From positions 1-20,338 of the IMG/VR virus record IMGVR_UViG_3300030103_001451: a stretch of 20,338 bases of DNA, one strand, 5' to 3'. This DNA is from a virus. Position 1 is the stretch's first letter. Each line of letters begins with the position of its first letter. Positions 5,580-19,832 of this stretch are shown piece after piece. A program made the position numbers and the translations under genes. The notes below the pieces were generated by a model that saw only the letters and a program-made list of their open reading frames with translations, searched no databases and was not told the origin of the DNA.

Positions 5580-7595
5580 TTAGGAGCCGGTCTTGAGGGC
5601 AACAATAGCACCAGCGGCACTGCTGTCACCAACGTCGTGGCAGTTGATGTCAAAGCGAGTCGTTCCACGAACACCGATTTGGTCGGCCTCGAAGAAGCGA
5701 TCTTCACTCACGGCAATCTCGGTTGGCCGACGGTCGCCCATCGTTGCACCGAGTTCGAGTGCGCCGAAGTACGCACAGAGGGTAGAGGTAGCAGTTGCCT
5801 TTGGCATCACATCAGTCAGCACGACTTCATAGCCAAACAACGAAGGCACAGCCACGCCACCAGCAAGGGTGAGGTTGGTGTTGCCGCCAGCGTCAGCAAG
5901 AAGGTCAAGCACGACAGTGTGATAGAACTGAGTGGACATGTACCACTTTGGAGTGCCTTGCGAGAAGACAAACTCAGGGGCCAAGCCAACAGTGCCGGTC
6001 AGGTCAGCAAGAGTCAAAGCAGCAAAAGTGTTGCCCGAACCTTGGGTCTTTGTACCAGCAGAACCAACAGCGTTCTTCAGGCCGACGATGCCGCCGTTGC
6101 TTGAAGTGCCATCACCGTTGAAGCCTGCTTCGTCTTCTGCGTTTGCAAAAGCACGGGCAACTTCACCAGCCAAGAAGTCGCCGAGATTCACAACGGAATC
6201 TTCAGCCAACTCACGGCTGTACTTGGTCAACGTGGCAGCCTTACGGGCAACCAAAGACACTTGGTCGAACGAAGCATCAGTTTCGCTGATCGACGAACCT
6301 TCACCAACGAACGAAGCGGTCAGGCCGCCAGCGATTCGGTTGATGAGCAAGGTGTCGCGGCTCATGTTCAGCACGCGGGTGTTGGCGCGGAACTTGCCAA
6401 ACTGAGCGCGCAAGTCAATGATTGCTTGCTCCAGTTCGTCAGGCACCAAGAACCCACCAAGCGAGTTGTTGGTTTCGCCGTGTGCCTTAGCACCGTAGCG
6501 ATCCGAGACCCACTGTTGAGCGGACTTGTTGCCCATTGAACCCAAGAAGAACTGACCAAGACCGTGTGCGGTTTCGGCGTCGTTCAGGTGCTTGAGTGTT
6601 CCCTTCATAGCAGGAGCAGTCACGACAGGCGTGGCAGCGGCAACACGACGGCGGCCCTCTGCTGCTTGCTTCTTGACAAGATCAGCGACAAGAGCGACAG
6701 CGGACTTGGCAGCCTTGTCCTCTTCTTCTTTGTCCATTTTGGTTGAAGCCTTCTCGACTTCTTCCTCAACCTCAGCACGCACAGCGTCGGCCTCATCTTC
6801 CATTTCCATGGCAGCCATGAGTTCGGCAATGGTCATATCTGGCTTGAGGTCAACCATCATTTTCTTTCGGATATCTTCCGACATGGTTTTTTCCTTTGTT
6901 TCAGAATCATTAGAACTTCGCTCTGGCTGAGTCGTTGATGCCTGCTCTGCTTCTTCAATTGCCTGCCGACAATTGACGCTCTCAGGGTTCTCGCACGATG
7001 CCTGCGAACACTTACATACATCGGCAACGTCGCCGATGTCATTGAGTTGCTTGGTGACTTGGACGGCAATGGCGTCTTCGTTCATGGGCAAGGGTGCAAC
7101 GCTGTACTCCAGCATGCGTGACTTGCTCACGATTCGCTTGATGTCATCACGACCGTATCGGTCAAAGTCTTTCTTGGTGGGCTGGCGCACTTGGGTGTAC
7201 GCAAAGCCGATGCTAAACGCCTTCACAATCGGCGGATCAGAGGCGAACATGGCGAACACCTCATCAGGCAGCCACTTGCCCTCGTAGCCTTCGGGCCGCT
7301 CAGGGAACTGCGTCACCGCCATGATGCCACGATCAGTGTGCTTGATGCTGGTGCAGACGCCGCACGGGGCTGCGTAGTCGTGGTTATAGAACACCGTGCC
7401 AGTCTTCTTGAAGCGTGAGAAGTCAATGCCCTCAGGCACGACAACTTCGCCTTCTTCGTCCACTCGGTCCGTGGTGATGTACGCAAGCACGCTGCGCTTG
7501 GGTTGGTCAATCTCGATGTTCTTGATTGACAGTTCACGCCAGACGGTTGGCACATCAGACTTCAACCCGTATTCGGTTGGGTTCAGTTCGTTCAT
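5580..7595 (-). CDS. Fused HK97-type prohead protease and major capsid protein
   Basis: This 671-aa protein joins two normally separate head proteins. Residues about 20-180 are an HK97-like prohead protease. His72 (in YNHDY), Ser128 (in KAFSIGF) and Glu163 (in MLEYSVAPLP) are placed like the family's His-Ser-Glu triad. A linker at about 190-237 carries four cysteines (194, 196, 201, 209). Residues about 238-330 are a charged, coiled-coil, scaffold-like delta domain. From about 335 to the end is an HK97-fold capsid, with GGFLVPDEL, ARKAATLTKYSRELAEDS, FNGDGTSSNGGIVGL and GDRRPTEIAVSEDRFFEADQ. The ATG at 7595 overlaps the portal-MuF stop by one base. An in-frame ATG at 6884 with a strong ribosome binding site could also make the capsid part alone. 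The protease presumably removes itself and the delta domain during maturation. Confidence 0.88.
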   Translation of the reverse strand: MNELNPTEYGLKSDVPTVWRELSIKNIEIDQPKRSVLAYITTDRVDEEGEVVVPEGIDFSRFKKTGTVFYNHDYAAPCGVCTSIKHTDRGIMAVTQFPERPEGYEGKWLPDEVFAMFASDPPIVKAFSIGFAYTQVRQPTKKDFDRYGRDDIKRIVSKSRMLEYSVAPLPMNEDAIAVQVTKQLNDIGDVADVCKCSQASCENPESVNCRQAIEEAEQASTTQPERSSNDSETKEKTMSEDIRKKMMVDLKPDMTIAELMAAMEMEDEADAVRAEVEEEVEKASTKMDKEEEDKAAKSAVALVADLVKKQAAEGRRRVAAATPVVTAPAMKGTLKHLNDAETAHGLGQFFLGSMGNKSAQQWVSDRYGAKAHGETNNSLGGFLVPDELEQAIIDLRAQFGKFRANTRVLNMSRDTLLINRIAGGLTASFVGEGSSISETDASFDQVSLVARKAATLTKYSRELAEDSVVNLGDFLAGEVARAFANAEDEAGFNGDGTSSNGGIVGLKNAVGSAGTKTQGSGNTFAALTLADLTGTVGLAPEFVFSQGTPKWYMSTQFYHTVVLDLLADAGGNTNLTLAGGVAVPSLFGYEVVLTDVMPKATATSTLCAYFGALELGATMGDRRPTEIAVSEDRFFEADQIGVRGTTRFDINCHDVGDSSAAGAIVALKTGS
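6882..6897 (-). promoter_or_regulatory. Internal ribosome binding site and in-frame ATG for the capsid part
   Basis: Inside the protease-capsid fusion, AAAGGA (6897-6892) lies seven bases upstream of ATG 6884-6882. The ATG is in frame (codon 238) and opens MSEDIRKKMM. It falls exactly at the junction between the protease with its linker and the scaffold-plus-capsid part. Translation from here would give a 434-aa scaffold-capsid protein in excess over the full-length fusion. This matches the need for many capsid subunits and few proteases, and recalls nested starts such as lambda C/Nu3. That it is used is inferred. Confidence 0.6.
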
Positions 7596-10500
7596 CAGTC
7601 AGAATCTCCAAGCACCGGGATGATGTCACACCGGCAGTTCGGGTGAAGTGGCGCACCTTGCACATCGCCATATCGGACGGAATAGGTGCCGCCTCCAGCG
7701 GAGATGGTGTCACCGTTCTTCCAGAAGGGTTCATTCAGGTCAAAGACTTTGGCTGTGCCTTTCACGGCGGTCTGCTGGCAGAACGGGCAAGCACCTGCTG
7801 CGAGTTGCCACTGCTTGCCACGCACCACCCCGGACTCTTCCCACCCGAGCCGCTCGCCTTCGACGAACGCACGGGCAGTCTCGGTGCGTGCCACCACGGT
7901 CGCACGCTCAGGGCTGAACGCATAGTCAGTGCTGATCTGGTCAGCAATCTGCTGCACGCTTTGGCCTTGCTCCAAGCCGCGAGCAATCACCGTGCGCGCC
8001 CGGCGAAGTGATGCCGCCGAAGCCTCACTTGCAAACTCTTGTGCGTACGTTGAAGCGAACTCAGCCACACGCGGGTTGGTCACATCGAACGCACCGGACA
8101 CGCCAACCTCGTTCGTGCCGAAGGTGCTGCCAGATGCAGTCGCCTCTGCCATCGGCCCGGCAACCGCTTCTTGATACTGCACCTCAAAGGCTCCCATAGC
8201 GGTCAGCAACCGCATCAGGTCTTGTGGCCCAAACTGCTTTTTGCCGCCCTTAGCGCCAAGCAGGGCGTTGATGATCTCACGCTTCTGCTCGTCGAGTACC
8301 CGCACCAAGTTGGTCTGGATACGGCGTGCCGGGTTGGCTGGTTCGCCTGCTCGGATGTCATCGCTTGCCGGTTCTGGCTCGTAGTCCTCTACGTCTTCAA
8401 TAGCCTTGCGGGCTTCCTTGGTACGTTCGGGCCAGTCTTCTTTGCTTGGACCGTCAAACGCCTTCTTCTGCATTTCCGGCTCCATGCCGGTCAGGAAGGC
8501 AACCGCACGCTTGGTGGCTGTGCCGCACTGACGGTATGCAATCGCAACCGCTTGGTCACGCTCGTACCCTTCAGACAGCAACTTCTCGATGCCGCGTGCA
8601 ACACAGTTGTCTAGGCTCTCACCTTCTCTCCGCGATACCTTCTCTCCGCGTTCGTCTTCTGCGTCCATACGGTCACGAATCGAGTTGGCCCAACGTTGCC
8701 CGGCGTCGCCTCCCCAAAGCGCCCACGCAATGCGACCGGCTGAAGGGTAGCCGTCCTCACCACGCTCAAAACCTTCTGCTTCTTTGTCAACTTCATGCCG
8801 TGTGAAAAAGTTGACCATACGCCGGATCGTCTCAGGCGAGACAGACACGCCGTTGCTAAGGTCACGCGCCCGTGCCACGCCGACTTCTGTGCCGCCGCGT
8901 CCATGCTCGGCACGCCAGTCCAAGCCACGCTGTGCCTCTCTCTGAACGTCAGCAGGCGGTGTGAAGTCTATGTCTTCATACTTCTTTTGCTGTTCTTTAA
9001 GTGCTGCTTCATAGTCACGGTGCGACAAGCATGGCATGTAGATCACGCCGTCATAGCCGTACGCATCGCCGGGGTGTTCGTGGATGCCATCACATCCAAG
9101 CACCAACGCACGACTCTCGGCTTCCTCTGGCGTGGTGTATACGTCAGGGAAGTTCTCAAGTGCAGCCTTCTCGCTGGTGTCTTGCATATACGCATCGTGC
9201 GAAGAGCAAGGCATATAGATCAAACCATCGTGACCAAAAGGTTCACCCGGTGCGGTGTGGATACCGTCACATCCAAGTTCTTCTGCCCTACGTTCAGCCT
9301 CTTCTCTTGTCGTGAAGTAGTCCTTGTAATCAGGAAGTTCAGCCTTTGTCCCACCTTGGCTTTTGCTAGACAACGGGTGGCCTTCTGGCAGCAAGTCAGT
9401 GTCGTATGGCTTGCGCTTGAACTTGCCGGTCTTGAGTGCGTGCAAGAACCCGTTGACGCGAGCGTATGCCCACTGCTCAGCACCAGCCACGGTGGGCCGC
9501 ACTGACGATGGGTTCTGACGGTAAGCACCAATGCCACGCTCGAAGACAGCAACCAGCGTGCGGGTTGTGGTTCGCTTGCTCTTGGCATTGCCCACTTCTT
9601 CGTTGTGTTCTTCGGCTTTCTCTTTCAGCGTCTCACGCACCTGCTCACTGACTGCCTTGATGCCCTTGGTGACTTCAGGCTCGTCGGTTGGTGTCAAGCG
9701 TGAGACTTGCACGGGTGCGTCACGATCAGACGGCGTGAACGTGCCATCCTCGTTGCGGATGTAAACCTGCACAAAGGCAATTGGATCTTCTGCTGTGGCT
9801 TCACCGTCGCCAACCGTACCCGGCTCAGTGCCGGATTCTTTGAAGCGTCGGATCTTGCCCAGATACTTTCCCTTCTCAGTCCTCCACTCCACCCATGAGC
9901 CAACGCGGACTTCGCTACGAGTTGCCTTCCGATTCTCTTCTTCTTCGTTGCCGTATGCCAAAGCACCCAAAGGCGGCAGGGCTGGCTGACCAAGAACGTC
10001 AAGCGGAATGCCGTTGACGCGCAGTTCGTCTCCATCGTCCGCCGGATCAAGGCCAAGTTCGGCACGGGCTTCGTTGATCGTGCGAATACCTGACGCAACC
10101 TGCGTCTGCATGATGCCTGAGATGAGTTGCTCGTCTTCTTGCACCGGGTTGTCGTAGGCCAAGAACAGACCGTCAGCCAGTCCACCGAAGAGCGGCAGCA
10201 GCGACTGGTTCAGGAACTCAGCGTCAGCAACCAGATACGGGTGGATCGTGTCACGCATGTACGAGGCAAAGCCAACCTGTGCCGATGCAAGGTTTGGATC
10301 GTTAGCCTTCAGCAAGGTGACAGGCACGCCGGACACGGCAGCAATGACTTCAACCTTGCGGTTCTCGCCTTCGCTGAACGACAGGTCACGAGGGCTGAAC
10401 TGCAACGGGCGTGCGTCTGATCCACCCTCAAAGATGTAAGGCCGACCGCTGTTGCGGTTGCCTCGAAGGTTCTGATCGAGGTACGCAATCATGCGGTTCC

Positions 10501-11299
10501 ACTGCGTTTCGTTCAGCGTCTCTTTCAGGAAGATGCCCCAGTCAGGACGGGCTTGGTTCTGAAACAGGTGCTTCTCGTACCCGTCCATTGACTGCAACAA
10601 GCCAGCCGCGTCAGACGCAGCGGCAACCCAGCCACGACCGTACAGCGGATCGTTCGGGTCAGGCACGCGGTTGTGCAGCACTTCGTCAGGTGCAAAGAAG
10701 GCGTTGTTCGGTTGCTGCCCGTATTCGTAGCCTTCAATCAGTCGCTCGTCACGGGTTGGCTTGATCTTGACGTACTGCGACGGCATCACCCAGATTTCGA
10801 CCGGGTAGCCCATCGGCCCCATGATCGGGTGCAGATACTCGTTGCCAGTCACTTGCAAGAACGTCTTGCGAAGGATGTTGAAGTTGTACCCGTCATAGAA
10901 CGGTGACACCTTGTTGAGCAAGTCGAGGATCGGGTGATCATAGATTTCAACAACGTCACCCCCGGTGTTCGATCCAAGCATGGCGGACTTCGCAGGACGC
11001 ATCGAGCCGTCGCCCTTGAGATACCGCTGCACGCTCTTGCTGACCGACTTGGTTGGGAACTGTTTTGTGCCGCGTGCTTCAACAGACGCATACAGGCGCA
11101 AGGGCTGTGCGGCAATGCTTCGAGCGTTCATCATCACAGCGGCATAGACGTAGCCTGTCATCAGACGCAAGGAAGCAGCCTGCTCCTGCGTTGACTTGGT
11201 CATGCCATATGTGGCTTCTGGCTTGATGGTTGATCGGACGTAGTCCAAGCGGTCTTGCTTGGCCTTGAACCCAAGAGCGGATTTGAAACCTTCAAGCAT
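7595..11299 (-). CDS. Giant portal-MuF fusion with inserted accessory domains
   Basis: I choose ATG 11299, which overlaps the terminase stop (TAATG) and has GGAG nine bases upstream. A GTG at 11314 would add five residues. Numbers here are from the GTG. Residues 1-440 are an HK97-type portal (TGYVYAAVMMNARSIAAQPL, GNEYL, RVPDPNDPLYG, SGVPVTLLKANDPNLASAQ). Residues about 463-541 resemble a Tudor-like domain found beside phage proteases (VGSWVEW, DPIAFVQVYI). About 551-650 is a phage module with RGIGAY, SSVRP, QWAYARVNGFL and DTDLLPEGHPLSSK. Two repeats follow at 661-768. About 773-890 carries SPETIRRMVNFFTRH and IAWALWGGDAG. About 903-930 reads CVARGIEKLL and QAVAIAYRQC. Residues 1080-1239 are a MuF head-morphogenesis domain with RTETARAF, CPFC and HPNCRC. 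It probably forms the portal ring and the minor head protein in one chain, possibly cleaved later. Confidence 0.87.
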   Translation of the reverse strand: MLEGFKSALGFKAKQDRLDYVRSTIKPEATYGMTKSTQEQAASLRLMTGYVYAAVMMNARSIAAQPLRLYASVEARGTKQFPTKSVSKSVQRYLKGDGSMRPAKSAMLGSNTGGDVVEIYDHPILDLLNKVSPFYDGYNFNILRKTFLQVTGNEYLHPIMGPMGYPVEIWVMPSQYVKIKPTRDERLIEGYEYGQQPNNAFFAPDEVLHNRVPDPNDPLYGRGWVAAASDAAGLLQSMDGYEKHLFQNQARPDWGIFLKETLNETQWNRMIAYLDQNLRGNRNSGRPYIFEGGSDARPLQFSPRDLSFSEGENRKVEVIAAVSGVPVTLLKANDPNLASAQVGFASYMRDTIHPYLVADAEFLNQSLLPLFGGLADGLFLAYDNPVQEDEQLISGIMQTQVASGIRTINEARAELGLDPADDGDELRVNGIPLDVLGQPALPPLGALAYGNEEEENRKATRSEVRVGSWVEWRTEKGKYLGKIRRFKESGTEPGTVGDGEATAEDPIAFVQVYIRNEDGTFTPSDRDAPVQVSRLTPTDEPEVTKGIKAVSEQVRETLKEKAEEHNEEVGNAKSKRTTTRTLVAVFERGIGAYRQNPSSVRPTVAGAEQWAYARVNGFLHALKTGKFKRKPYDTDLLPEGHPLSSKSQGGTKAELPDYKDYFTTREEAERRAEELGCDGIHTAPGEPFGHDGLIYMPCSSHDAYMQDTSEKAALENFPDVYTTPEEAESRALVLGCDGIHEHPGDAYGYDGVIYMPCLSHRDYEAALKEQQKKYEDIDFTPPADVQREAQRGLDWRAEHGRGGTEVGVARARDLSNGVSVSPETIRRMVNFFTRHEVDKEAEGFERGEDGYPSAGRIAWALWGGDAGQRWANSIRDRMDAEDERGEKVSRREGESLDNCVARGIEKLLSEGYERDQAVAIAYRQCGTATKRAVAFLTGMEPEMQKKAFDGPSKEDWPERTKEARKAIEDVEDYEPEPASDDIRAGEPANPARRIQTNLVRVLDEQKREIINALLGAKGGKKQFGPQDLMRLLTAMGAFEVQYQEAVAGPMAEATASGSTFGTNEVGVSGAFDVTNPRVAEFASTYAQEFASEASAASLRRARTVIARGLEQGQSVQQIADQISTDYAFSPERATVVARTETARAFVEGERLGWEESGVVRGKQWQLAAGACPFCQQTAVKGTAKVFDLNEPFWKNGDTISAGGGTYSVRYGDVQGAPLHPNCRCDIIPVLGDSD
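9011..9334 (-). repeat. Two tandem protein repeats (GCDGIH...YMPC units) inside the portal fusion
   Basis: Residues about 661-709 (9334-9188) and 722-768 (9151-9011) of the portal-MuF protein are two copies of one unit. Each has an aromatic start, T-x-EEAE-x-RA, LGCDGIH, a short Pro/Gly loop, YG- or FG-x-DG, IYMPC, SH and a closing Tyr. The two Cys and two His in each copy are conserved between units, which suggests metal binding or a disulfide. The DNA copies are clearly related but diverged, so this is an old duplication. Confidence 0.8.
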
Positions 11300-12582
11300 T
11301 AGAGCGATCTCCACATTCGTTCATCGTTGGCAAACCTGTCACCAGTTGCGGTCTTATCCGCTACGCGCACCCGTGGCTCGACACGGCTGCCATCGAAATG
11401 AACCACGGCATATCGCAATGCGTCCATCGCGTGATCCATCTCTTTCTTCGGTGCATCCTTGTAGCCACTTGAGCCACCAAGCCACTCGTACGACTCGAAC
11501 TCACGAATGGTGTTCTCGCACTTCGGGTCAACCGTCAAGCGTGGCTGACCATCGCCAGCACGGGCAAGACGCTGCTGCACCTTCTGAATACCCGGAAAGA
11601 CGCTGTTTTCAGCCGATGCCACATCGAGGTTGGACTGGTGCATTGCTGCCTTCAGTTTGGCGGCTGACGGATCAAGCACGAAAGACTCGATCTTGTACCG
11701 GCTGGCGATGTCCTTGGCGGTTGCGATCACATCCACTTCAAGCATCTGCGACTTGTAGAACTCTTCGATGATGTGCAATCGACCGTCGCCATCTTCGCCC
11801 ACAACCAGAAGAGCCGCCGGGTTGGTGTAGCCTTCGTCTTGGCCCACGATGATTCTCCGCCACTCTTCGGTGCGTTGCCGAACATGCACAGACCGATCAA
11901 AGCGGTCATACACCAAGCCCTCGCCACCACGCCACTTGCCTTCAACGTATCGCTCAAACGCTACCCCTTCAAGGCTCATCAAGTCTTCCAGATAGGCTTG
12001 CGGCAAGAAGAAGTTGTCCGGGCTTCTGGTCTGGATCGCTCGGCAGTTCTGTGCGGCTTGATGTCCACCGGCAAGCCCGAAGCGTACAGCCAAGAAGTGC
12101 GATGGCGCACCGGGGTTGCAGGCTCCATACAACTGCATGGCAAGGTCATCGAGTTCAAGACGGATGCGACCACGCAGCATGGTCCAGTCGCCTTCGACCA
12201 ACTCAACGGCCTCATCAACTGCACAGCCTGACAGGTTCAAAGACCCCATCTTCTCGTAGTCATCAAGGCCGAAGTAGTAGATCGTTCCGCCACCAAGCAG
12301 GCGAATCACACGCTCGCTCTTGTTGTGTTCGTATGTGCCACGCGGCAGGACGGGTGGCAAGTTGCCGTCTTGCTCAAGCAGCGTGCGAAGCGTCGTTGCT
12401 TTCAGGCTGACAAGGTGCTTTCGTGCCAAGCCCTCACGCGCGCCCGGTCGACCAACCAAACGAGCCACCAACTTCATGCACAACGCCCGCGTCTTGCCTG
12501 CACCAAACGCACCTGAATACAGCACCTCACGCTCTCGCGCTCTGATGAAGTCAAGTTGTGCGGGCAGCAGGTCAAACTTCAT
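11299..12582 (-). CDS. terL: Large terminase subunit (packaging ATPase/nuclease)
   Basis: This 427-aa protein pumps DNA into the procapsid and cuts it. I start it at ATG 12582 (MKFDLLPAQLDF). That ATG overlaps the end of the small subunit by 11 bases and follows AGAAG, and the family usually begins at such a 'P-x-Q' segment. An upstream ATG at 12618 would add 12 residues. The ATPase domain has Walker A SGAFGAGKT (residues 23-31) and Walker B with Asp123-Glu124 in CAVDEAVEL, followed by the motif III-like CNPG. The C-terminal RNase H-like nuclease shows three acidic residues at the expected spacing: Asp249 (VGQDEGYTNPA), Asp304 (FVLDPSAA) and Asp387 (HAMDALRYA). Length and motif order are normal. 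It lies between the small subunit and the portal, the standard packaging-module order. Confidence 0.95.
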   Translation of the reverse strand: MKFDLLPAQLDFIRAREREVLYSGAFGAGKTRALCMKLVARLVGRPGAREGLARKHLVSLKATTLRTLLEQDGNLPPVLPRGTYEHNKSERVIRLLGGGTIYYFGLDDYEKMGSLNLSGCAVDEAVELVEGDWTMLRGRIRLELDDLAMQLYGACNPGAPSHFLAVRFGLAGGHQAAQNCRAIQTRSPDNFFLPQAYLEDLMSLEGVAFERYVEGKWRGGEGLVYDRFDRSVHVRQRTEEWRRIIVGQDEGYTNPAALLVVGEDGDGRLHIIEEFYKSQMLEVDVIATAKDIASRYKIESFVLDPSAAKLKAAMHQSNLDVASAENSVFPGIQKVQQRLARAGDGQPRLTVDPKCENTIREFESYEWLGGSSGYKDAPKKEMDHAMDALRYAVVHFDGSRVEPRVRVADKTATGDRFANDERMWRSL

Positions 12583-12913
12583 CTGGCTTCTCTGGTGGTG
12601 TGGCTTCGGCAAACTCAATGGTCAGAGGCCGCAGACCTTCGCCGCTGTGTTCGGTCTTCTCACGCATGCCAAGGTACTGCTTGCTCAGCCACACCATCAT
12701 CTGCCGGTCGCCGTCCATCGCTGAACTCCACATCTCACGACGCAGCGAACCCTTGCCCGTGTCCCTTGCTTGCTCGATGATTTCGCGGTAGTCCTCACGG
12801 GCATACAACGAGGATCGAGAGCAACCGAAGAATCCGGCAATTTCTTCATACGTCAACTGCATCGACGCCAGTTTGCGTAGTTGCTCAACGTCAAGGTCAA
12901 GTGGTGCGGGCAT
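12572..12913 (-). CDS. terS: Small terminase subunit
   Basis: A 113-aa protein with ATG at 12913 overlapping the upstream stop by one base. Residues about 8-45 form a helix-turn-helix (QLRKLASMQLTYEEIAGFFG, then CSRSSLYARED). After it comes the oligomerisation region with ARDTGKGSLRREMW and MMVWLSKQYLGMREK. The phrase 'M-WL-x-KQ-LG' near the end is typical of phage small terminases and related packaging DNA-binding proteins. It would recognise the packaging site and load the large subunit, whose gene begins inside its last codons. The acidic/proline C-terminal tail is probably the part that contacts TerL. Length is on the short side but within the usual range. Confidence 0.85.
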   Translation of the reverse strand: MPAPLDLDVEQLRKLASMQLTYEEIAGFFGCSRSSLYAREDYREIIEQARDTGKGSLRREMWSSAMDGDRQMMVWLSKQYLGMREKTEHSGEGLRPLTIEFAEATPPEKPDEV

Positions 12914-13398
12914 TACTTCCTTCTCCTTGGTCTTACCATAGCCAGACCGAACAACAGAAGCGGCCCAGCGAACGGCACAAACCTATCTGGTGGATCGGGC
13001 AGAAAGCCTGTCAACAAGAGTGGCGGGCTGATCTCTGGTTCAAACGGTGGCAAGATGCTGCCGGGTATATCAGCCAGCACAGACCGTGAGACCGTGAAGC
13101 CCAATTCAGGCATGCTGGTGCTGAGCCTTGGCTTGGGTGCTTGCGAGGTACTAGCAGCAATGGTCGGATAGATCAACTCGTCATCACTCGTGCCAGCGTC
13201 ACCAACTTGCAGCGTGTTCACAACCTCAGTGACTTGCGTGAACCGATCGAAGGCTTCCTTGCCGATCAGGGTTGACAGCACAGCCACAGCAATCGCCATG
13301 CGTTGATTGACCTTGGCGGCTTGCTCCTGTTGCTTCTCGCACTGGCTCAGGGCTTGCCGTTCGTCCTTGGCTCGTTGCTCGCACTTTGGGCAGGTCAT
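12913..13398 (-). CDS. Protein with CPxC start, coiled coil and PEP-CTERM-like C-terminus
   Basis: A 161-aa protein of unknown function. Cys3 and Cys6 (MTCPKC) open a charged, Gln/Glu/Lys-rich helix. A hydrophobic stretch (MAIAVAVLSTLIG, about residues 34-46) follows, then an acidic Ser/Thr/Pro-rich middle. The final 30 residues run FLPDPPDRFVP, AGPLLLFGLAMV and RPRRRK. That end (a proline-acidic-proline motif, one membrane-length hydrophobic helix and a terminal Arg/Lys cluster) has the architecture of PEP-CTERM sorting signals, although the motif is PDP rather than PEP. It is ATGA-coupled to the beta-helix-like protein upstream and one base from terS. It has no classical signal peptide, so the topology is unclear. 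It might be a membrane or lysis protein, or a virion protein that mimics a host surface signal. Confidence 0.55.
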   Translation of the reverse strand: MTCPKCEQRAKDERQALSQCEKQQEQAAKVNQRMAIAVAVLSTLIGKEAFDRFTQVTEVVNTLQVGDAGTSDDELIYPTIAASTSQAPKPRLSTSMPELGFTVSRSVLADIPGSILPPFEPEISPPLLLTGFLPDPPDRFVPFAGPLLLFGLAMVRPRRRK

Positions 13399-14276: not shown

Positions 14277-15505
14277 CAGACAAGAATGAACGTGTCACCG
14301 TTCGCTGGAGCCTCTGTGAGTGCGTTGACCGTGAACTTGCCACGCCCGCCGCTCAGTGCGTAGTCAGTCACAGCCTTCTGCTGCCCGGCAAGGTTGCCAG
14401 TGACGAACAAGCAGATGCGGTCATTGAAGTGGTCAGCCGTGGCCTCTGAGATGTTGGTTTCAAAAGCCGTAGTGGTCGGCGTGAAGGATGTGTTGTCAAC
14501 CGTGCCAATCGGGCATGCGTCCATCATGGCTTCAAGCCTGTCAGCCGCAGCACTGTCGCCGCTGATCTTGACCGAATCAACTGGCTGATTGCTTGTGCCG
14601 TCGGTGTAGTCAGACAGGTTGGTAGCACTGGTGGTGCTGTTGTCAATCCGCTTGACATTCACAGCCACGACGTTGTTGCTGTTGTCAATCGCAGCGTCAA
14701 GGGCCGCAGCAGCAGAAGCGTCACCGTTGATCTGCGTAGCATTGACTGCAAGCACGCCGCTTGATGATGTGACGTTCGAGTTGCCAACCTGCGTGACATC
14801 CACTTGCAGCGTGTCATCGTCAAGTACCAGTGACTCGTACGCTTGGGTTCGCACCGCAACGCCTGAAGCCAAGACCGGCACAAAGACGTTTGAATCAACA
14901 AGGCTAATGCTGAACTGTCCCATATGGTTCGTGTTGGCACTGGTCAGTTCAAGCGACCAAATGCCGTTGGCAATGTGCGTGAAGTCGTTGTTGCCGCCGC
15001 TTGCAGTCAAAGTCAACGTGCTTGCGGTTGTGGCCTTTATTAACTTGGCAGTGATGTCGCCGGGCGTCAATGAGGTCACAGGCTCGCCGCTGGTCGGATC
15101 AAGCAGCGGGCCGATTGCAACCGTGGTTGCTTCGGCTTGCTCGATCAGTCCAAGGTTCTGGCTGCTAACTCTGCCGCCTGCACCTGTACGGGCTTGCACC
15201 GAGAACGTGCCGATGACAGCCCTGACCGATTGCGAGTCAACCGTGCCAGCCACCACCACCGAGAACGTCGAGCCAACCGCGTAGAACGAGGCGTCACTGC
15301 TGGTCGTGATGGTCACCCGGTGAAAGCCGGTCAGCGAGTTGACATCAACGGTGAGCGTCGCACCCGATGTCGAGTTTGACGTTGTGCCGTCCTTGTAGAT
15401 TACGACCGATCCGCTGGTGATGGTTGCAGCAGCACCGGCTTGATCTGACGTTGAGAAGAAGGCGTTGACTGAATCGCCTTGTTGGATATCACCGAAGTTG
15501 CTCAT
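14276..15505 (-). CDS. Large beta-rich virion protein (probable tail appendage)
   Basis: A 409-aa protein starting MSNFGDIQQGDSVNAFFSTS, ATGA-coupled to the LamG-like gene. Residues about 1-105 form an Ig-like or carbohydrate-module-like beta domain with the pattern GVSV/GSVVIYKDGTTSN, LTVDVNSLTGFHRVTI, SFYAVGSTFSVVVAGTVD. This opening recurs in phage structural proteins. A second beta domain lies at about 130-225. The middle has short repeats of the type 'Q(V/I)NG-x-x-A-AA-LD-AAID' and 'VKRIDNSTTSATNL'. The last 85 residues (FTPTTTAFETNIS, DHFNDRICLFVTGNLAGQQK, LTEAPANGDTFIL) are a terminal domain found on many environmental phage structural proteins. I infer a role in adsorption or the baseplate. 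No host-type signal peptide is seen. Confidence 0.65.
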   Translation of the reverse strand: MSNFGDIQQGDSVNAFFSTSDQAGAAATITSGSVVIYKDGTTSNSTSGATLTVDVNSLTGFHRVTITTSSDASFYAVGSTFSVVVAGTVDSQSVRAVIGTFSVQARTGAGGRVSSQNLGLIEQAEATTVAIGPLLDPTSGEPVTSLTPGDITAKLIKATTASTLTLTASGGNNDFTHIANGIWSLELTSANTNHMGQFSISLVDSNVFVPVLASGVAVRTQAYESLVLDDDTLQVDVTQVGNSNVTSSSGVLAVNATQINGDASAAAALDAAIDNSNNVVAVNVKRIDNSTTSATNLSDYTDGTSNQPVDSVKISGDSAAADRLEAMMDACPIGTVDNTSFTPTTTAFETNISEATADHFNDRICLFVTGNLAGQQKAVTDYALSGGRGKFTVNALTEAPANGDTFILV

Positions 15506-16323
15506 GCTTGTATCAAGCCTCCATCTATTAGGCCGCTAGACATTCCATATTGAACGCGGAACTTGGGGGCCGCTGATTTGTACGGGTGGTCGCTTGGCAA
15601 AGATCCTGTCAGGCTGTACTTGTGTGCCGCGTAGCCTTCAACCTTTTGAATCTGCGACAGCGTAGGATTTGCCATATAGACCATTTCAGCAATCTCACCT
15701 TCGCAACCGCCAGAGAAAAACGCCGACCCAATTGCATACTGCGTTTGGTCAAGATCAATGCTTGAAGCGTCTGCCTCGTCTGAGAGTTCATCACCTATGT
15801 ATCGCATCATCAACTTGCCAGAGTGACGCCCAAACACAAGGGAACGGTAAGCCGTGCCAGTTGTACCAGATGGGAAGTCGCTGTTAGAAATAACATCAGA
15901 AACACTTCCGACGCTTATCTGAATCCCGGCATCACCATTCTGGTAGAGCAGTTGAATTGATTTGGAGCCGTTTTGCCCACGTGTCAGAGTGCCAAAGTTA
16001 AGAGCCGATCCATCATTCGCGTTGCCAATGAAGCAGCAAACGCAAGCACCCGAAGTGCCGACGTTCAAAGCCGATGCTGTGAAGTTCAACTGGTCAAACC
16101 GTGCAGCACCATCAAATTGAACAGCAGGCTTGCTGCTGATCGTGCTGCTTGCAACGTACGTCGGCTTGGCGGATGCAGCGGTCTGCGTTGCACTTATGCT
16201 GTTGCCTTCGGTGCTTGTCCAAGTTGCTACAGAATCGCCATCAGACAGAGAACTTAGAGAATCCGCTGTGAACCAAGCAACGCAAGTTGACTTGCCAAGA
16301 TTTGTGGGCGTCCAATCGGGCAT
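15502..16323 (-). CDS. LamG/concanavalin-like virion protein
   Basis: A 273-aa protein beginning MPDWTPTNLGKSTCVAWFTA. The features are those of phage and environmental LamG-type (concanavalin A-like lectin/glucanase) proteins. There is an N-terminal 'aWFtADslsslsDGdsVatW' strand pair, then PAVQFDGAARFD and repeated beta strands. Near the end come EGEIAEMVYM, QKVEGYAAHKYSL and LPSDHPYKSAAPKF. The closing 'EGYxAHKY-x-L...LP-x-HPYK-x-xAP' is a strong family signature. It probably binds a surface polysaccharide and belongs to a fibre or other virion appendage. Its ATG follows the stop of the 39-aa gene by one base, and its stop overlaps the next appendage gene. Confidence 0.75.
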   Translation of the reverse strand: MPDWTPTNLGKSTCVAWFTADSLSSLSDGDSVATWTSTEGNSISATQTAASAKPTYVASSTISSKPAVQFDGAARFDQLNFTASALNVGTSGACVCCFIGNANDGSALNFGTLTRGQNGSKSIQLLYQNGDAGIQISVGSVSDVISNSDFPSGTTGTAYRSLVFGRHSGKLMMRYIGDELSDEADASSIDLDQTQYAIGSAFFSGGCEGEIAEMVYMANPTLSQIQKVEGYAAHKYSLTGSLPSDHPYKSAAPKFRVQYGMSSGLIDGGLIQA

Positions 16324-16324
16324 G

Positions 16325-16444
16325 TCACTTCCGCAAGATTCGGTTGCTCAACAGTTCTAAGAGTGGTCTGCCGATCCATGCTCCGGCGGCAAAGGCGATA
16401 ACGTACCCCGAAGCGAGGGCGATGAAGGAAATAACTTGATCCAT
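16325..16444 (-). CDS. 39-aa single-pass membrane peptide, overlapping the lipoprotein gene
   Basis: A short gene not apparent as a separate long frame. ATG 16444 is preceded by a strong ribosome binding site, AAGGAG, eight bases upstream. It ends at TGA 16327-16325, directly before the LamG gene. The product (MDQVISFIALASGYVIAFAA, then GAWIGRPLLELLSNRILRK) has one hydrophobic helix of about 20 residues and a basic C-terminus. The first 88 bases overlap the end of the 144-aa lipoprotein gene in another frame. A minus-strand frame extending up to 16819 contains it, but the upstream part is not credible protein. Size, topology and place beside two other membrane proteins suggest a holin-like or lysis-regulating peptide, but no family is recognised. 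Confidence 0.62.
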   Translation of the reverse strand: MDQVISFIALASGYVIAFAAGAWIGRPLLELLSNRILRK

Positions 16445-16791
16445 GTCCGAATCTCCTTGAAGTTGAGGGCCGCCACTCCTGCTGTCACGCAGAGTCCGGC
16501 TATGAGTGTGAATACGAATATCTGCGACTCTAGCACCTTCGCCAGAATCGCCATCACCACTGTGAGTGCTATGCCCAAGGCTACCGGTATCCAACCCCGG
16601 TTGCCTCTCGTCACGAACAGCAAGCCGCCGCCCGTCAATATCAGAATCGTGCCGCTGAACTTGAGCGGGTCCAAAGCATGAGCCACCTCGTTGCTTGGTG
16701 ACTCCGATATTGCTTTGGCAAAAGGGAGCGACAGCCCACCCTCCTGAGTGGACTGGCAGCCAAGCATCAAGATGGGCAGCAAGAACCTCAT
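16357..16791 (-). CDS. Lipoprotein with three transmembrane segments (possible holin/spanin component)
   Basis: A 144-aa protein beginning MRFLLPILMLGCQST. The short hydrophobic start ending in LMLGC (Cys12) fits a lipoprotein signal peptide and lipobox. Three hydrophobic segments follow: about residues 45-61 (FSGTILILTGGGLLFV), 67-84 (GWIPVALGIALTVVMAIL) and 91-109 (IFVFTLIAGLCVTAGVAAL). A basic amphipathic stretch and a Pro/Ser-rich tail end the protein. It is ATGA-coupled to the small TM/coiled-coil gene upstream, and its end encodes the start of the 39-aa peptide in another frame. Several small membrane proteins together between the nuclease and the appendage genes suggest a lysis cassette. 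It could equally be a membrane-anchored exclusion protein. Confidence 0.62.
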   Translation of the reverse strand: MRFLLPILMLGCQSTQEGGLSLPFAKAISESPSNEVAHALDPLKFSGTILILTGGGLLFVTRGNRGWIPVALGIALTVVMAILAKVLESQIFVFTLIAGLCVTAGVAALNFKEIRTWIKLFPSSPSLRGTLSPLPPEHGSADHS

Positions 16792-16991
16792 GCCTCTGTC
16801 TTGCCCTCCAACCGGGCAACGCGCTGCTCGACCTCGTGCGTTCGTGTCTCGATCAGTTGCACCGCTGCTTCGAGGCGATCCACGGCACGCCGCAGTTCAT
16901 CAATCGCAGCCTTGACGCGGCCCGCTCCAAAGACAACACCGAAGATGATGCTTGCGGGGGTTATGAGTTCGGGGAGGAGTTCTGATTGCAT
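16788..16991 (-). CDS. Small protein with one TM segment and a C-terminal coiled coil
   Basis: A 67-aa protein beginning MQSELLPELITPASIIFGVV. One hydrophobic segment (about residues 10-26) is followed by a long charged helix with heptad spacing (AAIDELRRAVDRLEAAVQLI, then THEVEQRVARLEGK). The shape recalls phage lysis-associated proteins such as XhlA or Rz-like proteins, in which a coiled coil is joined to a single membrane span. In XhlA the order is reversed, so this is only an analogy. The gene overlaps the nuclease end by 31 bases and the lipoprotein start by four (ATGA). The ribosome binding site is weak, which suggests translational coupling. Confidence 0.65.
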   Translation of the reverse strand: MQSELLPELITPASIIFGVVFGAGRVKAAIDELRRAVDRLEAAVQLIETRTHEVEQRVARLEGKTEA

Positions 16992-17329
16992 GCTTGCCCT
17001 GCGAGTACAGATACCAGATCAGCAAGACGATCCAAGCGAACCATGACGGCCCAGTTCCGGTCGTTGTCTTGACGCATGAGTACCAACGGCACGCCGCCGT
17101 GGCTTTGTTGTTCATCGGCTGCATCTGTCTCAGCCTGAAGCAAGAAGTCAAGTGACGCGATCCGCGCACGCCGCTTGACCTCCATGTGCAAGCCCTCAAC
17201 GCCAGTGAGGTCAGAAGACAACTTGCCGTCCACTTGTGCCGTGCGTCTGACGCTCAGCCCGGTCGCCTCTTCCCACGCTTTGGCTGCTTCGAGTTCGCCA
17301 CGCTTGCCTTTTTGTCTTGAGTTGGTCAT
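16961..17329 (-). CDS. PD-(D/E)XK nuclease, Holliday-junction-resolvase-like
   Basis: A 122-aa basic protein starting MTNSRQKGKRGELEAAKAWE. It carries the expected order of a small PD-(D/E)XK phage nuclease. Glu12 lies in KRGELEAAKAW, an Arg pair at 28-29 in LSVRRTAQ, Asp40 in SSDLTG, and the catalytic Glu50-Val-Lys52 in GLHMEVKRR. A Gln-containing helix (LDFLLQAETDA) and the strand VPLVLMRQDNDRNWAVMVRL follow. The combination 'G-x-xxE ... RR ... DL-x-G-x-GLH-x-EVK' is seen in phage endonucleases and Holliday junction resolvases of this size. It could process replication intermediates before packaging. It is ATGA-coupled to the zinc protein upstream. Confidence 0.78.
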   Translation of the reverse strand: MTNSRQKGKRGELEAAKAWEEATGLSVRRTAQVDGKLSSDLTGVEGLHMEVKRRARIASLDFLLQAETDAADEQQSHGGVPLVLMRQDNDRNWAVMVRLDRLADLVSVLAGQACNQNSSPNS

Positions 17330-17526
17330 GGAGTGCGTTGTATCTCAGTCCAGTGCTTCTTGCTCATCGCCACAGGATCGGGCTTGGGCTGCCAGTTGTT
17401 GTCGCTATTGCGGATGCAGCCAAGGCAGAACGGGCCGCACCCGTCTTTGGCGTTGCGTTCCCGAAGGAAGGCGGCAAGCGGTAGGTGCTGGCGGCAACTC
17501 AGACATATACGGCTTACTCGACTCAT
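17326..17526 (-). CDS. Small CxxC...CxxC zinc-ribbon-like protein
   Basis: A 66-aa protein. I start it at ATG 17526, which overlaps the upstream stop as ATGA. An ATG at 17541 would add five residues. Cys8-x-x-Cys11 (ICLSCRQHLPLAAF) and Cys34-x-x-Cys37 (FCLGCIRN) lie about 22 residues apart and would bind one zinc ion, with a further Cys30. The spacer reads like the 'P-L-xxF-x-x-xxxKDG-x-xx-C-x-x-C' module that precedes HNH or endonuclease VII-type nucleases in phages, but no nuclease domain follows. It lies directly before a PD-(D/E)XK nuclease, so a partner or accessory role in DNA processing is plausible. It may instead be a truncated HNH-type protein reduced to its zinc module. Confidence 0.68.
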   Translation of the reverse strand: MSRVSRICLSCRQHLPLAAFLRERNAKDGCGPFCLGCIRNSDNNWQPKPDPVAMSKKHWTEIQRTP

Positions 17527-18569
17527 GGACACGCTCCCCATTCTGACAACACCTTGATGATAGCGTTGAAGCCGTTGTTGGTTTGCGGGTGGTACTTGAA
17601 CGCGGCAACGTCACCAAGCACCTGCAACAAGTCTTGAAACCCAACCATGCCATCTTCGTTCAAATCTGAAGGGCAAGAGTTGTCGGAATAGTAATTCACT
17701 GAGTACGGTGCCGGTTCGCAAGGGTGTCCGTTGCCACAAGCAAAGCGAACAACGCCCCCAGATCCAAAGTAATCTGGACCGGTAAACCGAGCGATGTGGA
17801 ACGAACCGGGCCACTTCTCGCTTCCCCAGTCAACGTCAGCGTTCCAACGGATCAGATCACCGTAGTCGTTCTGGGATGGAGAGGAGCAGCATTGTTCACC
17901 AACGATAGTTTCCCGGTGGGGCCAGTACTTGAGAACTCGGTTGTATGAATAATGCGGGGTAATCAGGTCTTTGTGTTGCTGCTGCACCTGCGGATACTTG
18001 TATTGTGCGTTCACCGAGCCGTACTTCTTGCCGAGTGGACCGTGCAGAATCCATGAGTCCGACCATGCGTACTCCAAATCAACCAGATCCGCCGTCCTTG
18101 GACAGCATCCCTGTGGTCCCTCAAAGACCCAGTTGACTGGCGTGAAATTCGCACCGAGGTACATCCACCGTTGATACGGGTTGGACTGGATGCAGTCCCA
18201 ATACTCACCGGGATCTGGGCAGACAATCCCAGTGTCTATTTCCCAGTAGTCAATGCACTCTTGGCAGTTCTCTAGCCAAGGGTACAGGTGGTTGGGTCGG
18301 CTGTTCTTGAAGATGTCACCCTCGATAGACCAACCAAACGCTCGTGTTGGTGACTCGTTGCCATAGGTGCTGCCGATCATGTACGGCCGGCGTGGCTCGC
18401 CATTGGGGTACGAGAACTCTGGATCAAAGCCGGTCTGTATGTAAACGTCAAACGTACGACCAAAGGGCGTCAAGCGTCCAAGGTCATCAATCCACATGGC
18501 AACTGAATCAGGATCAGCAGGCGGCCCGCTTTGGGCCACAAGCAACGCAACTACGCTTTCAATCATCAT
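17523..18569 (-). CDS. Exported, Cys-rich protein with C-terminal dockerin/EF-hand-like tail (planctomycete type)
   Basis: A 348-aa protein. I start it at ATG 18569, inside the end of the upstream gene (GATGATGATTGA), with GAGGACG before it. An ATG at 18599 would add ten unlikely residues. It begins MMIESVVALLVAQSGPPADP, a short, weak export signal. The body is rich in Trp, Tyr, Pro and Cys, with several Cys pairs (NCQEC, CCPR, CCSS), as in a disulfide-bonded extracytoplasmic protein. The last 50 residues begin CPSDLNEDGMVGFQDLLQVL. This contains the EF-hand loop D-x-N-x-D-G-x-V-x-x-x-D, followed by a degenerate second half ending KVLSEWGACP. Dockerin-like tails of this kind are common on secreted planctomycete proteins. 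No glycosidase, peptidase or lysozyme motif is recognised. It could act on the host envelope, be an unknown lysis enzyme, or be an acquired host gene. Confidence 0.68.
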   Translation of the reverse strand: MMIESVVALLVAQSGPPADPDSVAMWIDDLGRLTPFGRTFDVYIQTGFDPEFSYPNGEPRRPYMIGSTYGNESPTRAFGWSIEGDIFKNSRPNHLYPWLENCQECIDYWEIDTGIVCPDPGEYWDCIQSNPYQRWMYLGANFTPVNWVFEGPQGCCPRTADLVDLEYAWSDSWILHGPLGKKYGSVNAQYKYPQVQQQHKDLITPHYSYNRVLKYWPHRETIVGEQCCSSPSQNDYGDLIRWNADVDWGSEKWPGSFHIARFTGPDYFGSGGVVRFACGNGHPCEPAPYSVNYYSDNSCPSDLNEDGMVGFQDLLQVLGDVAAFKYHPQTNNGFNAIIKVLSEWGACP

Positions 18570-18771
18570 CGTCCTCGTCCTCGTCTGCATCAAACTCAAT
18601 CAAGGAATCTAGATCGGGCGGGTGCAGGTTGTCCCAATCATTCCACAGCGTCAACTTGGCCTGCTCGACCGCACCAAGAACTTCGTGCAGGGACATGTCC
18701 CATTCGACACCCATGTATCGGCAGCACTTCAGAATGGTCATCTGCAACTTGACGCTCGGATCGGTAGCCAC
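18559..18771 (-). CDS. Small protein with an acidic C-terminal tail
   Basis: A 70-aa protein with GTG at 18771 and a strong AGGAG nine bases upstream, lying in the last codons of the metallophosphoesterase gene. Residues 1-56 look helical and contain Trp24, Trp43 and Trp46 and two adjacent Cys (LKCCRYMGVEWD). The last 15 or so residues are nearly all Asp and Glu (FDADEDEDDDD). The run of GAC/GAG/GAT codons in this tail also supplies the purine-rich ribosome binding site and the ATG of the next gene. I recognise no family. The acidic tail could mimic DNA or bind a basic partner. Coupling to both neighbours makes it likely to be real. Confidence 0.65.
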   Translation of the reverse strand: MATDPSVKLQMTILKCCRYMGVEWDMSLHEVLGAVEQAKLTLWNDWDNLHPPDLDSLIEFDADEDEDDDD

Positions 18772-18774
18772 GGT

Positions 18775-19548
18775 TTATATCTCCTGAAGGCGGACAAGTT
18801 CCGCGTTCCAATTCTTTGCACAGAGGCGGTTCGGTCTGTCCGTCTTCGTTTCCGCGATGAGGCACGCAGCACCCCAAGCAGAGGTATCCATACGGCTTGC
18901 CCACTCCGGCGTGAGCGGCCCAAGAGTACCCACGTTCGCATACCAGTAAGGCAAAGGTACTTTGCGGGTTCGCAAGCACTGTGTTGGTGGTATCGGTCGG
19001 TGGGTGTGACCACGCACGAAGAGGCGATGAGAATGACCGCCAGTGATGTTGTTGAACTGCAACGCTTCCAACTCATCAGAAGTCTGCCCGGCATCGAAGC
19101 CATGAGAGAAGACCACTTGCCCAATCTGTACCTGCCCACGCTGGTTCTTTGCATACGGGTGTTGCGTCCAATTCGAGAACTCTGGCCACCGGGAGTCGCG
19201 GCCTATTTCGATCATGTCCCGAAGAGCCTTTGGAATCCGGCGCGGGTCACGCTTGAAGATGTTGTCATCGTGGTTGCCGTTCATCCAGATCAGGCGGCAG
19301 GACTCAGGCAAGGCTTCCCGGATCGACCGCAAGAAGTTGCTGGCATGCTCGAACTCGTCAGCAAGCGTGTGGTCATGCTCGCCTGCGTGGACGCTGGCTG
19401 CTGCTGCTTCGAGAAGGTCGCCACAGTGGACGAAGTGGGTGAGGCTTGGGCCAACGTCATCGAGCAACTCCATCAGCCTTGCGTGAGCCACCGGACTCGT
19501 GAAGGGCGAGTGGCTGCATGAGATGGCTGCGATGCGTGCCGTGTCCAC
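18775..19548 (-). CDS. Calcineurin-like metallophosphoesterase
   Basis: I start this 257-aa protein at GTG 19548. The frame extends up to 19683, but the upstream part is unlike the family and contains a terminator-like hairpin. It has most of the calcineurin-like metal-binding blocks: IAAISCSHSPF (motif I, with Cys11 where Asp is usual, then His13), HCGDLLEA (Asp44), MNGNHDDN (Asn92, His93, Asp94), VVFSHGF (His149) and GGHSHRLFVRGHTHRP (His181, His183). The middle carries EFEHASNFLRSIREALP, as in the phage-encoded metallophosphatase subgroup. Such enzymes usually hydrolyse phosphoesters or nucleotides, and the substrate here is unknown. Replacement of the first metal-binding Asp by Cys may weaken one metal site. 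It heads the operon that continues through the nuclease, probably from the promoter just upstream. Confidence 0.82.
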   Translation of the reverse strand: MDTARIAAISCSHSPFTSPVAHARLMELLDDVGPSLTHFVHCGDLLEAAAASVHAGEHDHTLADEFEHASNFLRSIREALPESCRLIWMNGNHDDNIFKRDPRRIPKALRDMIEIGRDSRWPEFSNWTQHPYAKNQRGQVQIGQVVFSHGFDAGQTSDELEALQFNNITGGHSHRLFVRGHTHRPIPPTQCLRTRKVPLPYWYANVGTLGPLTPEWASRMDTSAWGAACLIAETKTDRPNRLCAKNWNAELVRLQEI

Positions 19549-19579
19549 ATTTGTATATCGGCAGTCCTGCTGTCGTTCT

Positions 19580-19607
19580 GTTATACGCGCACGCGCGCGC
19601 GGGCAAA
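19580..19607 (-). promoter_or_regulatory. Possible promoter with an alternating CG spacer
   Basis: On the minus strand TTTGCC (19607-19602) and TATAAC (19585-19580) are separated by 16 bases, close to a sigma-70 layout. The spacer is almost purely alternating pyrimidine-purine, CG repeats with one CA step, and with the adjoining TATA gives a 20-base alternating run at 19582-19601. It lies just downstream of a terminator-like hairpin and about 32 bases upstream of the metallophosphoesterase GTG. That is where a promoter for the following operon would be expected. The -35 match is poor, so this is a weak call. Confidence 0.35.
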
Positions 19608-19620
19608 CTGTCCGAAGCAT

Positions 19621-19658
19621 CAAACAAACAAACCCGCAGAAGTGAGAACTACGGGCTT
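19621..19658 (-). terminator. Rho-independent terminator after the 109-aa gene
   Basis: On the minus strand CCCGTAG (19655-19649) pairs with CTGCGGG (19639-19633) around a nine-base loop, with one G-U pair. The outer AAG (19658-19656) and TTT (19632-19630) extend the stem to about ten base pairs. It is followed by the U-rich TTTGTTTGTTTG. The position, after the regulatory-type genes and before the metallophosphoesterase, fits the end of one transcription unit. Confidence 0.62.
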
Positions 19659-19832
19659 GCTGGCTCACTTGATCGGGAGGCAAGGAGCAAGGGAACTGAG
19701 TTGTCGCCCGGAGGCTAGAACCTCACCCGCACTTGCGAACGAATGAGGCTGGCGAGTAGTCCATCCACACGCCGCTACAGAAAGGAAAGCCGCCGCTGGT
19801 CGCCAGATCAACGACGGCAGGAGGGGTGGACT
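19659..19832. other. Non-coding stretch with possible RNA structure
   Basis: With the terminator and promoter, this forms the 284-base gap between the 109-aa gene and the metallophosphoesterase. No credible protein and no tRNA cloverleaf is seen. CTGGCGA (19749-19755) is complementary to TCGCCAG (19800-19806), and AGTCCA (19758-19763) to TGGACT (19827-19832). The two pairings interlock in the order of a pseudoknot. Near 19710-19723 the minus strand also has the small hairpin GAGG-TTCTAG-CCTC. These could form part of a leader, a small RNA or a regulatory site, but short pairings arise by chance and I cannot name a known RNA family. Confidence 0.35.

Follow-up and report, generated by a model that had tools for sequence, protein, structure and literature searches.

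The window, by which we mean the whole stretch of DNA that was analysed, corresponds to a 20,338-base IMG/VR virus record, and the features located in it are listed in Table 1. The gene of interest, here called CYS, is a real open reading frame on the minus strand, and since it shares 11 nt with the upstream gene at its 5' end and 19 nt with the downstream gene at its 3' end, the coupled operon proposed in the first-pass annotation holds. An in-frame ATG upstream of the CYS start, at 18590, would add MQTRTRT to the product. The cysteine- and tryptophan-rich character that had been noted for the protein is borne out by its composition (12 Cys and 14 Trp), and its C-terminus reads CPSDLNEDGMVGFQDLLQVLGDVAAFKYHPQTNNGFNAIIKVLSEWGACP, with the canonical loop in the form D302-x-N-x-D-G-x-V-x-x-x-D313.

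Table 1. Features of the CYS locus and of other parts of the window
Feature	Positions	Strand	Basis or remark
CYS, accessory single-gene cassette, 348 aa	17523-18569	minus	open reading frame, viral relatives, empty sites
CYS, N-terminal hydrophobic export signal, residues 1-14	18528-18569	minus	hydrophobicity; signal peptides in relatives
CYS, Cys- and Trp-rich body, residues 15-298	17676-18527	minus	conservation, AlphaFold2 models
CYS, Phycisphaerae-type, dockerin-like tail, last 51 residues (SCPSDLNEDG...WGACP)	17526-17678	minus	profile matches, GTDB pattern
CYS, canonical calcium loop, residues 302-313, DLNEDGMVGFQD	17631-17666	minus	sequence; nearly invariant in two alignments
CYS, degenerate second loop, residues 325-336, KYHPQTNNGFNA	17562-17597	minus	comparison with host two-unit tails; phage alignment
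Acidic 70-aa gene, upstream, left flank of cassette site	18559-18771	minus	where the site is empty, its stop directly overlaps the zinc-finger gene start
Small zinc-finger gene, endonuclease VII/HNH-like, downstream, right flank	17326-17541	minus	weak PHROG match (E 0.002-0.03); empty-site comparison
Metallophosphoesterase	18775-19683	minus	
PDDEXK/RusA-like gene	16961-17329	minus	
Small membrane protein	16788-16991	minus	
Small membrane protein	16357-16791	minus	
Lectin-like virion protein gene	15502-16323	minus	PHROG virion structural protein
CxxC/membrane segment/C-terminal VPFAGPLLLFGLAMVRPRRRK protein, PEP-CTERM-like	12913-13398	minus	cluster 2
Large terminase	11299-12618	minus	
Portal-MuF fusion, two DUF3721 copies between portal and Mu-F-like domain	7595-11314	minus	
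Prohead protease-capsid fusion	5580-7595	minus	

Relatives of CYS were detected in at least 83 IMG/VR contigs (62-100% identity, mostly full length, with some contigs ending inside the gene) by pattern-based viral scans, which find mainly close relatives, and these homologues in other phages carry the same tail. An alignment of 44 distinct full-length sequences has 108 invariant positions; nine of the 12 cysteines are invariant and a tenth nearly so, and conserved D, H, R, and K residues are present as well. In each of the 68 relatives compared, hydrophobicity over 10 aa peaks at the N-terminus, whose sequence varies, and several relatives possess textbook signal peptides (e.g., MRHFLTLVVCTLSSFSFA), which agrees with the export that had been predicted. 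Where dS was measurable (37 sequence pairs), dN/dS has a median of 0.08, and CYS is under strong purifying selection. No match for CYS was found in Pfam, PHROGs, or NCBIfam, and CYS was equally unmatched among phages of other hosts (50,697 records). Relatives were also absent from 84,980 bacterial and archaeal genomes (one per species) when conserved peptide patterns were searched, and literature searches for Phycisphaerales phages with CYS-like proteins gave nothing specific. A PDB sequence match to S100 (E 0.04) was dismissed because it covers the EF-hand loop alone, and no PDB match was retained.

Protein clustering of the carrier contigs separated them into groups without overlap, namely 25 T7-like, 9 T4-like, 13 window-type (HK97), and 9 other-terminase phages. 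No protein cluster except CYS is shared by 739 of 1,596 contig pairs, in which the median identity of CYS is 75.6%, and pairs with at least 11 clusters in common have 78.6% (near-duplicate contigs are included, so the pair counts are not independent). Compared with relatives of the window phage whose terminases are 95-97% identical (L028, L052, and L070), CYS shows only 67-82% identity over much of the gene and the flanks mostly 85-96%; for L070 the difference is limited to the middle of the gene. Four further close relatives obtained by terminase search (L373, L375, L380, and L396) have an exact empty site, in which the stop of the acidic gene overlaps the start of the zinc-finger gene. In T4-like carriers CYS comes right after the major head protein, in one T7-like carrier it lies between the scaffold and head genes, and the T4-like contig L292 has the head protein adjoining the tail tube, where carriers have CYS and other genes in between. 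Thus, CYS is a phage moron, or accessory cargo: closely related phages either have this one gene at the fixed site or lack it. The empty sites together with the exchange pattern imply that it is dispensable, traded as a unit, and inserted without disturbing translational coupling, and it is a freely exchanged single-gene cargo whose history is unlike that of phage core genes. This mobility across unrelated phages, which goes beyond the first-pass annotation, is the main point of our analysis. The lectin-like gene of the window, whose product also matched a TcdA1 receptor-binding-domain model weakly, is hypervariable, with 27-35% identity where the flanks are near-identical, and is another exchange hotspot in addition to CYS. 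Cultured relatives of the window phage are distant (under 60% identity for terminase and capsid), and tRNAs are present in two T4-like loci only.

The position next to head genes in T4-like and T7-like carriers might point to a virion-associated decoration or adhesin whose tail docks on host surfaces, and a structural protein of this kind had been among the earlier suggestions. However, all CYS relatives have a signal-peptide-like N-terminus, the protein would need to fit three unrelated virion types, and relatives of the phage exist without it; considering these points, a virion role is very unlikely.

All GTDB contigs were scanned with a degenerate DNA pattern that encodes the tail motif CP[AS]D(L/F)NxDG...WG. 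Planctomycetota labels were found on 76 of the 80 matches listed, two others being labelled as uncultured bacterium and two as Bacteroidota, and at least one of the two Bacteroidota-labelled matches listed carries a Phycisphaerae-like tail. Tails of this type mostly terminate secreted proteins and occur in a one-unit (about 25 aa) or two-unit (50-55 aa) form. The CYS tail has the two-unit length, and its loop 1 is canonical as had been claimed; loop 2, where host tails have DxNxDGxxxxxD, has lost the acidic ligands and is kept in that state among phages. Of 181 genomes from one Phycisphaerales family, to which a Station ALOHA Phycisphaerales MAG belongs, 53 were matched by the CYS family profile, and in all 53 the match is the tail region of a protein, with a few matches extending weakly upstream. 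Best E-values against single genomes range from 1.5e-9 to 8e-8, matches being confined to positions about 290-342, and in three small genomes the profile recognized tails like CPSDLNNDGNVGFADVLVVLGDW...WGDC. When 397 genomes drawn from the whole class were searched, with few candidates per genome scored, only two matches reached 1e-5, both from the same Phycisphaerales family. On these profile matches, the CYS tail can be assigned to the Phycisphaerae type of secreted protein tails, as the first-pass annotation had proposed.

Strict membership in the type I dockerins, the other part of that proposal, was rejected, since Dockerin_1 (PF00404) matches neither the isolated tail (E up to 5) nor the whole protein (E up to 1) and one of the two calcium loops is non-canonical. 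Dockerin_1 does weakly match several host tails, and proteins above its cut-off are present in all 11 candidate host genomes. Because freshwater Phycisphaerae have been proposed to carry a cohesin-dockerin surface complex, the "planctosome" (PMC6461901), a calcium-dependent surface partner for the CYS tail is plausible by analogy. The Pfam cohesin model (PF00963), which a divergent partner would escape, has no match in the 11 candidate hosts. Like the two-unit-tail secreted proteins of Phycisphaerae (PMC6461901), CYS combines a signal peptide with a ~50-residue CPxDLNxDG...WGxC tail with a canonical loop 1, whereas it differs from them in the degenerate loop 2, in the lack of a Dockerin_1 match for the tail, and in its body, to which none of the host bodies found is related.

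Profile searches, which linked the tail to Phycisphaerae secreted proteins, found nothing for the body in Pfam, PHROGs, and NCBIfam, and structure prediction gave little more. In both AlphaFold2 models (pLDDT 61 and 58) the core is rich in beta structure and carries a Cys-rich insertion that the models do not resolve; the body may, at low confidence, be a beta-sandwich into which a Cys-rich region is inserted; the tail of the full-length model contains two helices (low confidence). As the alignments are shallow (effective depth 1.6), these low-confidence models reveal little on the true fold. Foldseek searches with them returned nothing at E < 0.85 in the PDB or < 0.12 in BFVD. A structural family was indicated neither by PHROG matches nor by a viral fold match of the low-confidence models.

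A 278-aa tandem paralog with its own signal and a degenerate DLNYDDRVDFGDLL...WGN tail follows CYS in T4-like carriers (L043:3464-4300, L045:1921-2757, L077:6874-7710, and L080:8985-9821). Phycisphaerales genomes (e.g., L237-L247 and L261-L290) harbor a large secreted paralog family with a TxRxYA...YDSWVTIG motif and PEP-CTERM ends, which reaches up to 18 copies per genome and, in one family of 181 genomes, is present in 72. The CYS body might derive from this abundant host family and CYS might compete for the surface partner of its members, considering that the tandem paralog shares a motif with CYS (E 3.8e-4) and that the start of the paralog, IQNMG...TYRFFI, resembles the IQNMG...TYRVVL of host proteins in genome G069. 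However, profile comparison was not significant for either the CYS body (E 0.13 to 0.37) or the paralog (E 0.07 to 0.09). Homology of the CYS body to the family was rejected, the resemblance being one of motif alone, and we regard such a descent as distinctly unlikely.

Other phage genes with PEP-CTERM-like ends lie beside CYS. Cluster 2, whose window member is the PEP-CTERM-like protein in Table 1, occurs at most 8 genes from CYS in 28 loci, its relatives adjoin CYS in many other phages, and 23 of 24 distinct members of this family have a basic C-terminal end; such ends characterize both cluster 2 and cluster 11 among the CYS neighbors. Curated PEP-CTERM models do not match the window protein. 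In 13 loci, a secreted protein ending in VPAPAS...RRRR is encoded just downstream of CYS (e.g., L080:9870-10511 and L022:1146-1778); two of the three proteins tested match a PEP-CTERM model just under the cut-off (E 0.002-0.003), and these proteins have host relatives (best E 1.9e-11). An exosortase is present in six of seven candidate hosts. CYS itself is not a PEP-CTERM protein, as it ends in WGACP: compared with known PEP-CTERM/exosortase substrates (PMC1569441), such C-termini are found on phage genes neighboring CYS and the candidate hosts have exosortase, but CYS has no PEP-CTERM signal and its tail is dockerin-like. Taken together, the paralog, the PEP-CTERM-like companions, and the host exosortase suggest that these phages may exploit host surface-sorting systems. 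A separate family of ~155 aa with conserved Cys/His, a HWYISLASPKYAHCAILLG...NCVHC pattern, and a papain-like look is encoded directly downstream of CYS in T7-like carriers (L072, L074, L014, L050, and L054). Considering the tails, the sorting signals, and the absence of CYS elsewhere, the hosts of CYS-carrying phages are most likely members of one Phycisphaerales lineage.

The mimicry of host secreted proteins by CYS, the resemblance of its PEP-CTERM-like neighbors to host exopolysaccharide-associated proteins, and its occurrence in unrelated phages could also fit a secreted modifier of host or community behavior (aggregation, matrix, grazing, or competition), i.e., a phage-borne public good. 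Yet the CYS body has no homologue in hosts, implying that CYS was not just taken over from a matrix protein of the host, and this explanation appears rather unlikely.

The first-pass annotation had seen no endolysin nearby and had listed CYS as a candidate for that role. In a longer contig (L002), outside the window and about 6 kb from CYS, we found a destabilase (i-type lysozyme)-like gene with a membrane or signal segment (L002:3895-4311, Destabilase E 3.8e-5), which has relatives in about 12 carrier contigs and is a candidate endolysin of the phage. It belongs with the destabilase/i-type lysozyme-like phage endolysins and is unrelated to CYS. Two genes of the window, one for a small membrane protein with a lipobox-like LMLGC motif and the other for a small protein with a membrane helix and a coiled coil, are possibly a lysis cassette. 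Given the destabilase-like lysozyme in the same phage and the close relatives that lack CYS, and with no hydrolase domain found by Pfam, PHROGs, NCBIfam, or fold searches, CYS is unlikely to be the endolysin. Since the body has no recognizable fold, it could still be an enzyme, and a Cys-stabilized enzyme or binder that is secreted late to help the endolysin in lysis or envelope opening would be compatible with the export signal, the strong purifying selection, the conserved D, H, R, and K residues, and the location of CYS in many carriers in the late/head region or close to a lipobox protein and small membrane proteins that could form a lysis cassette. The same lysozyme, the CYS-free relatives, and the lack of any hydrolase family or fold match speak against such a helper as well, and we consider it unlikely.

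We tentatively favor another role, at somewhat less than an even chance, in which CYS is an accessory exported protein that is held on the host surface by its host-type tail and serves in superinfection exclusion or receptor masking in Phycisphaerales phages. The product is predicted to leave the cytoplasm via its signal peptide during infection, and disulfides would form outside the cytoplasm. The tail, copied from host secreted proteins, would then retain CYS at the host surface, where the beta-rich body may mask or alter surface structures so that other phages fail to adsorb or inject. Tail type, export signal, conserved cysteines, exchange, empty sites, and purifying selection support this reading at the sequence level, from which we infer the host, the surface location, and the exclusion function; the exosortase of most candidate hosts and the PEP-CTERM-like neighbors agree with it. 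A counterpoint is that many exclusion proteins act early, whereas the location of CYS among head genes in T4-like and T7-like carriers makes late expression likely. Known exclusion genes, for example cor (phi80/N15) and sieA (P22), are single-gene, dispensable, envelope-directed cargo (PMC11436027, PMC10883804), and CYS is likewise a single, dispensable, and apparently envelope-directed gene that is accessory in its phage group. Unlike Cor and SieA, to which it has no sequence relation, CYS is much larger, Cys-rich, equipped with a host-type surface tail, and distributed over several unrelated phage types, and exclusion is here a putative role.

To our knowledge, almost nothing is known about phages of abundant aquatic Phycisphaerales. 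The persistence of CYS at ~75% identity across T4-like, T7-like, and HK97-type phages that have nothing else in common marks a benefit to many phages of that host; its host-type tail makes a surface role testable, provides a sequence marker for planctomycete phages in metagenomes, and suggests phage use of planctomycete protein sorting. It is possible, though we put it forward with less than even confidence, that tailed phages which are unrelated to each other but infect one planctomycete lineage share and exchange a secreted toolkit for surface mimicry (CYS, the tandem paralog, and PEP-CTERM-like proteins), which relies on host surface sorting to re-coat the infected cell, leading to host-range-wide exclusion or surface takeover. 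If this is true, CYS and its companions would represent an exclusion or cell-surface takeover system that has not been described before.
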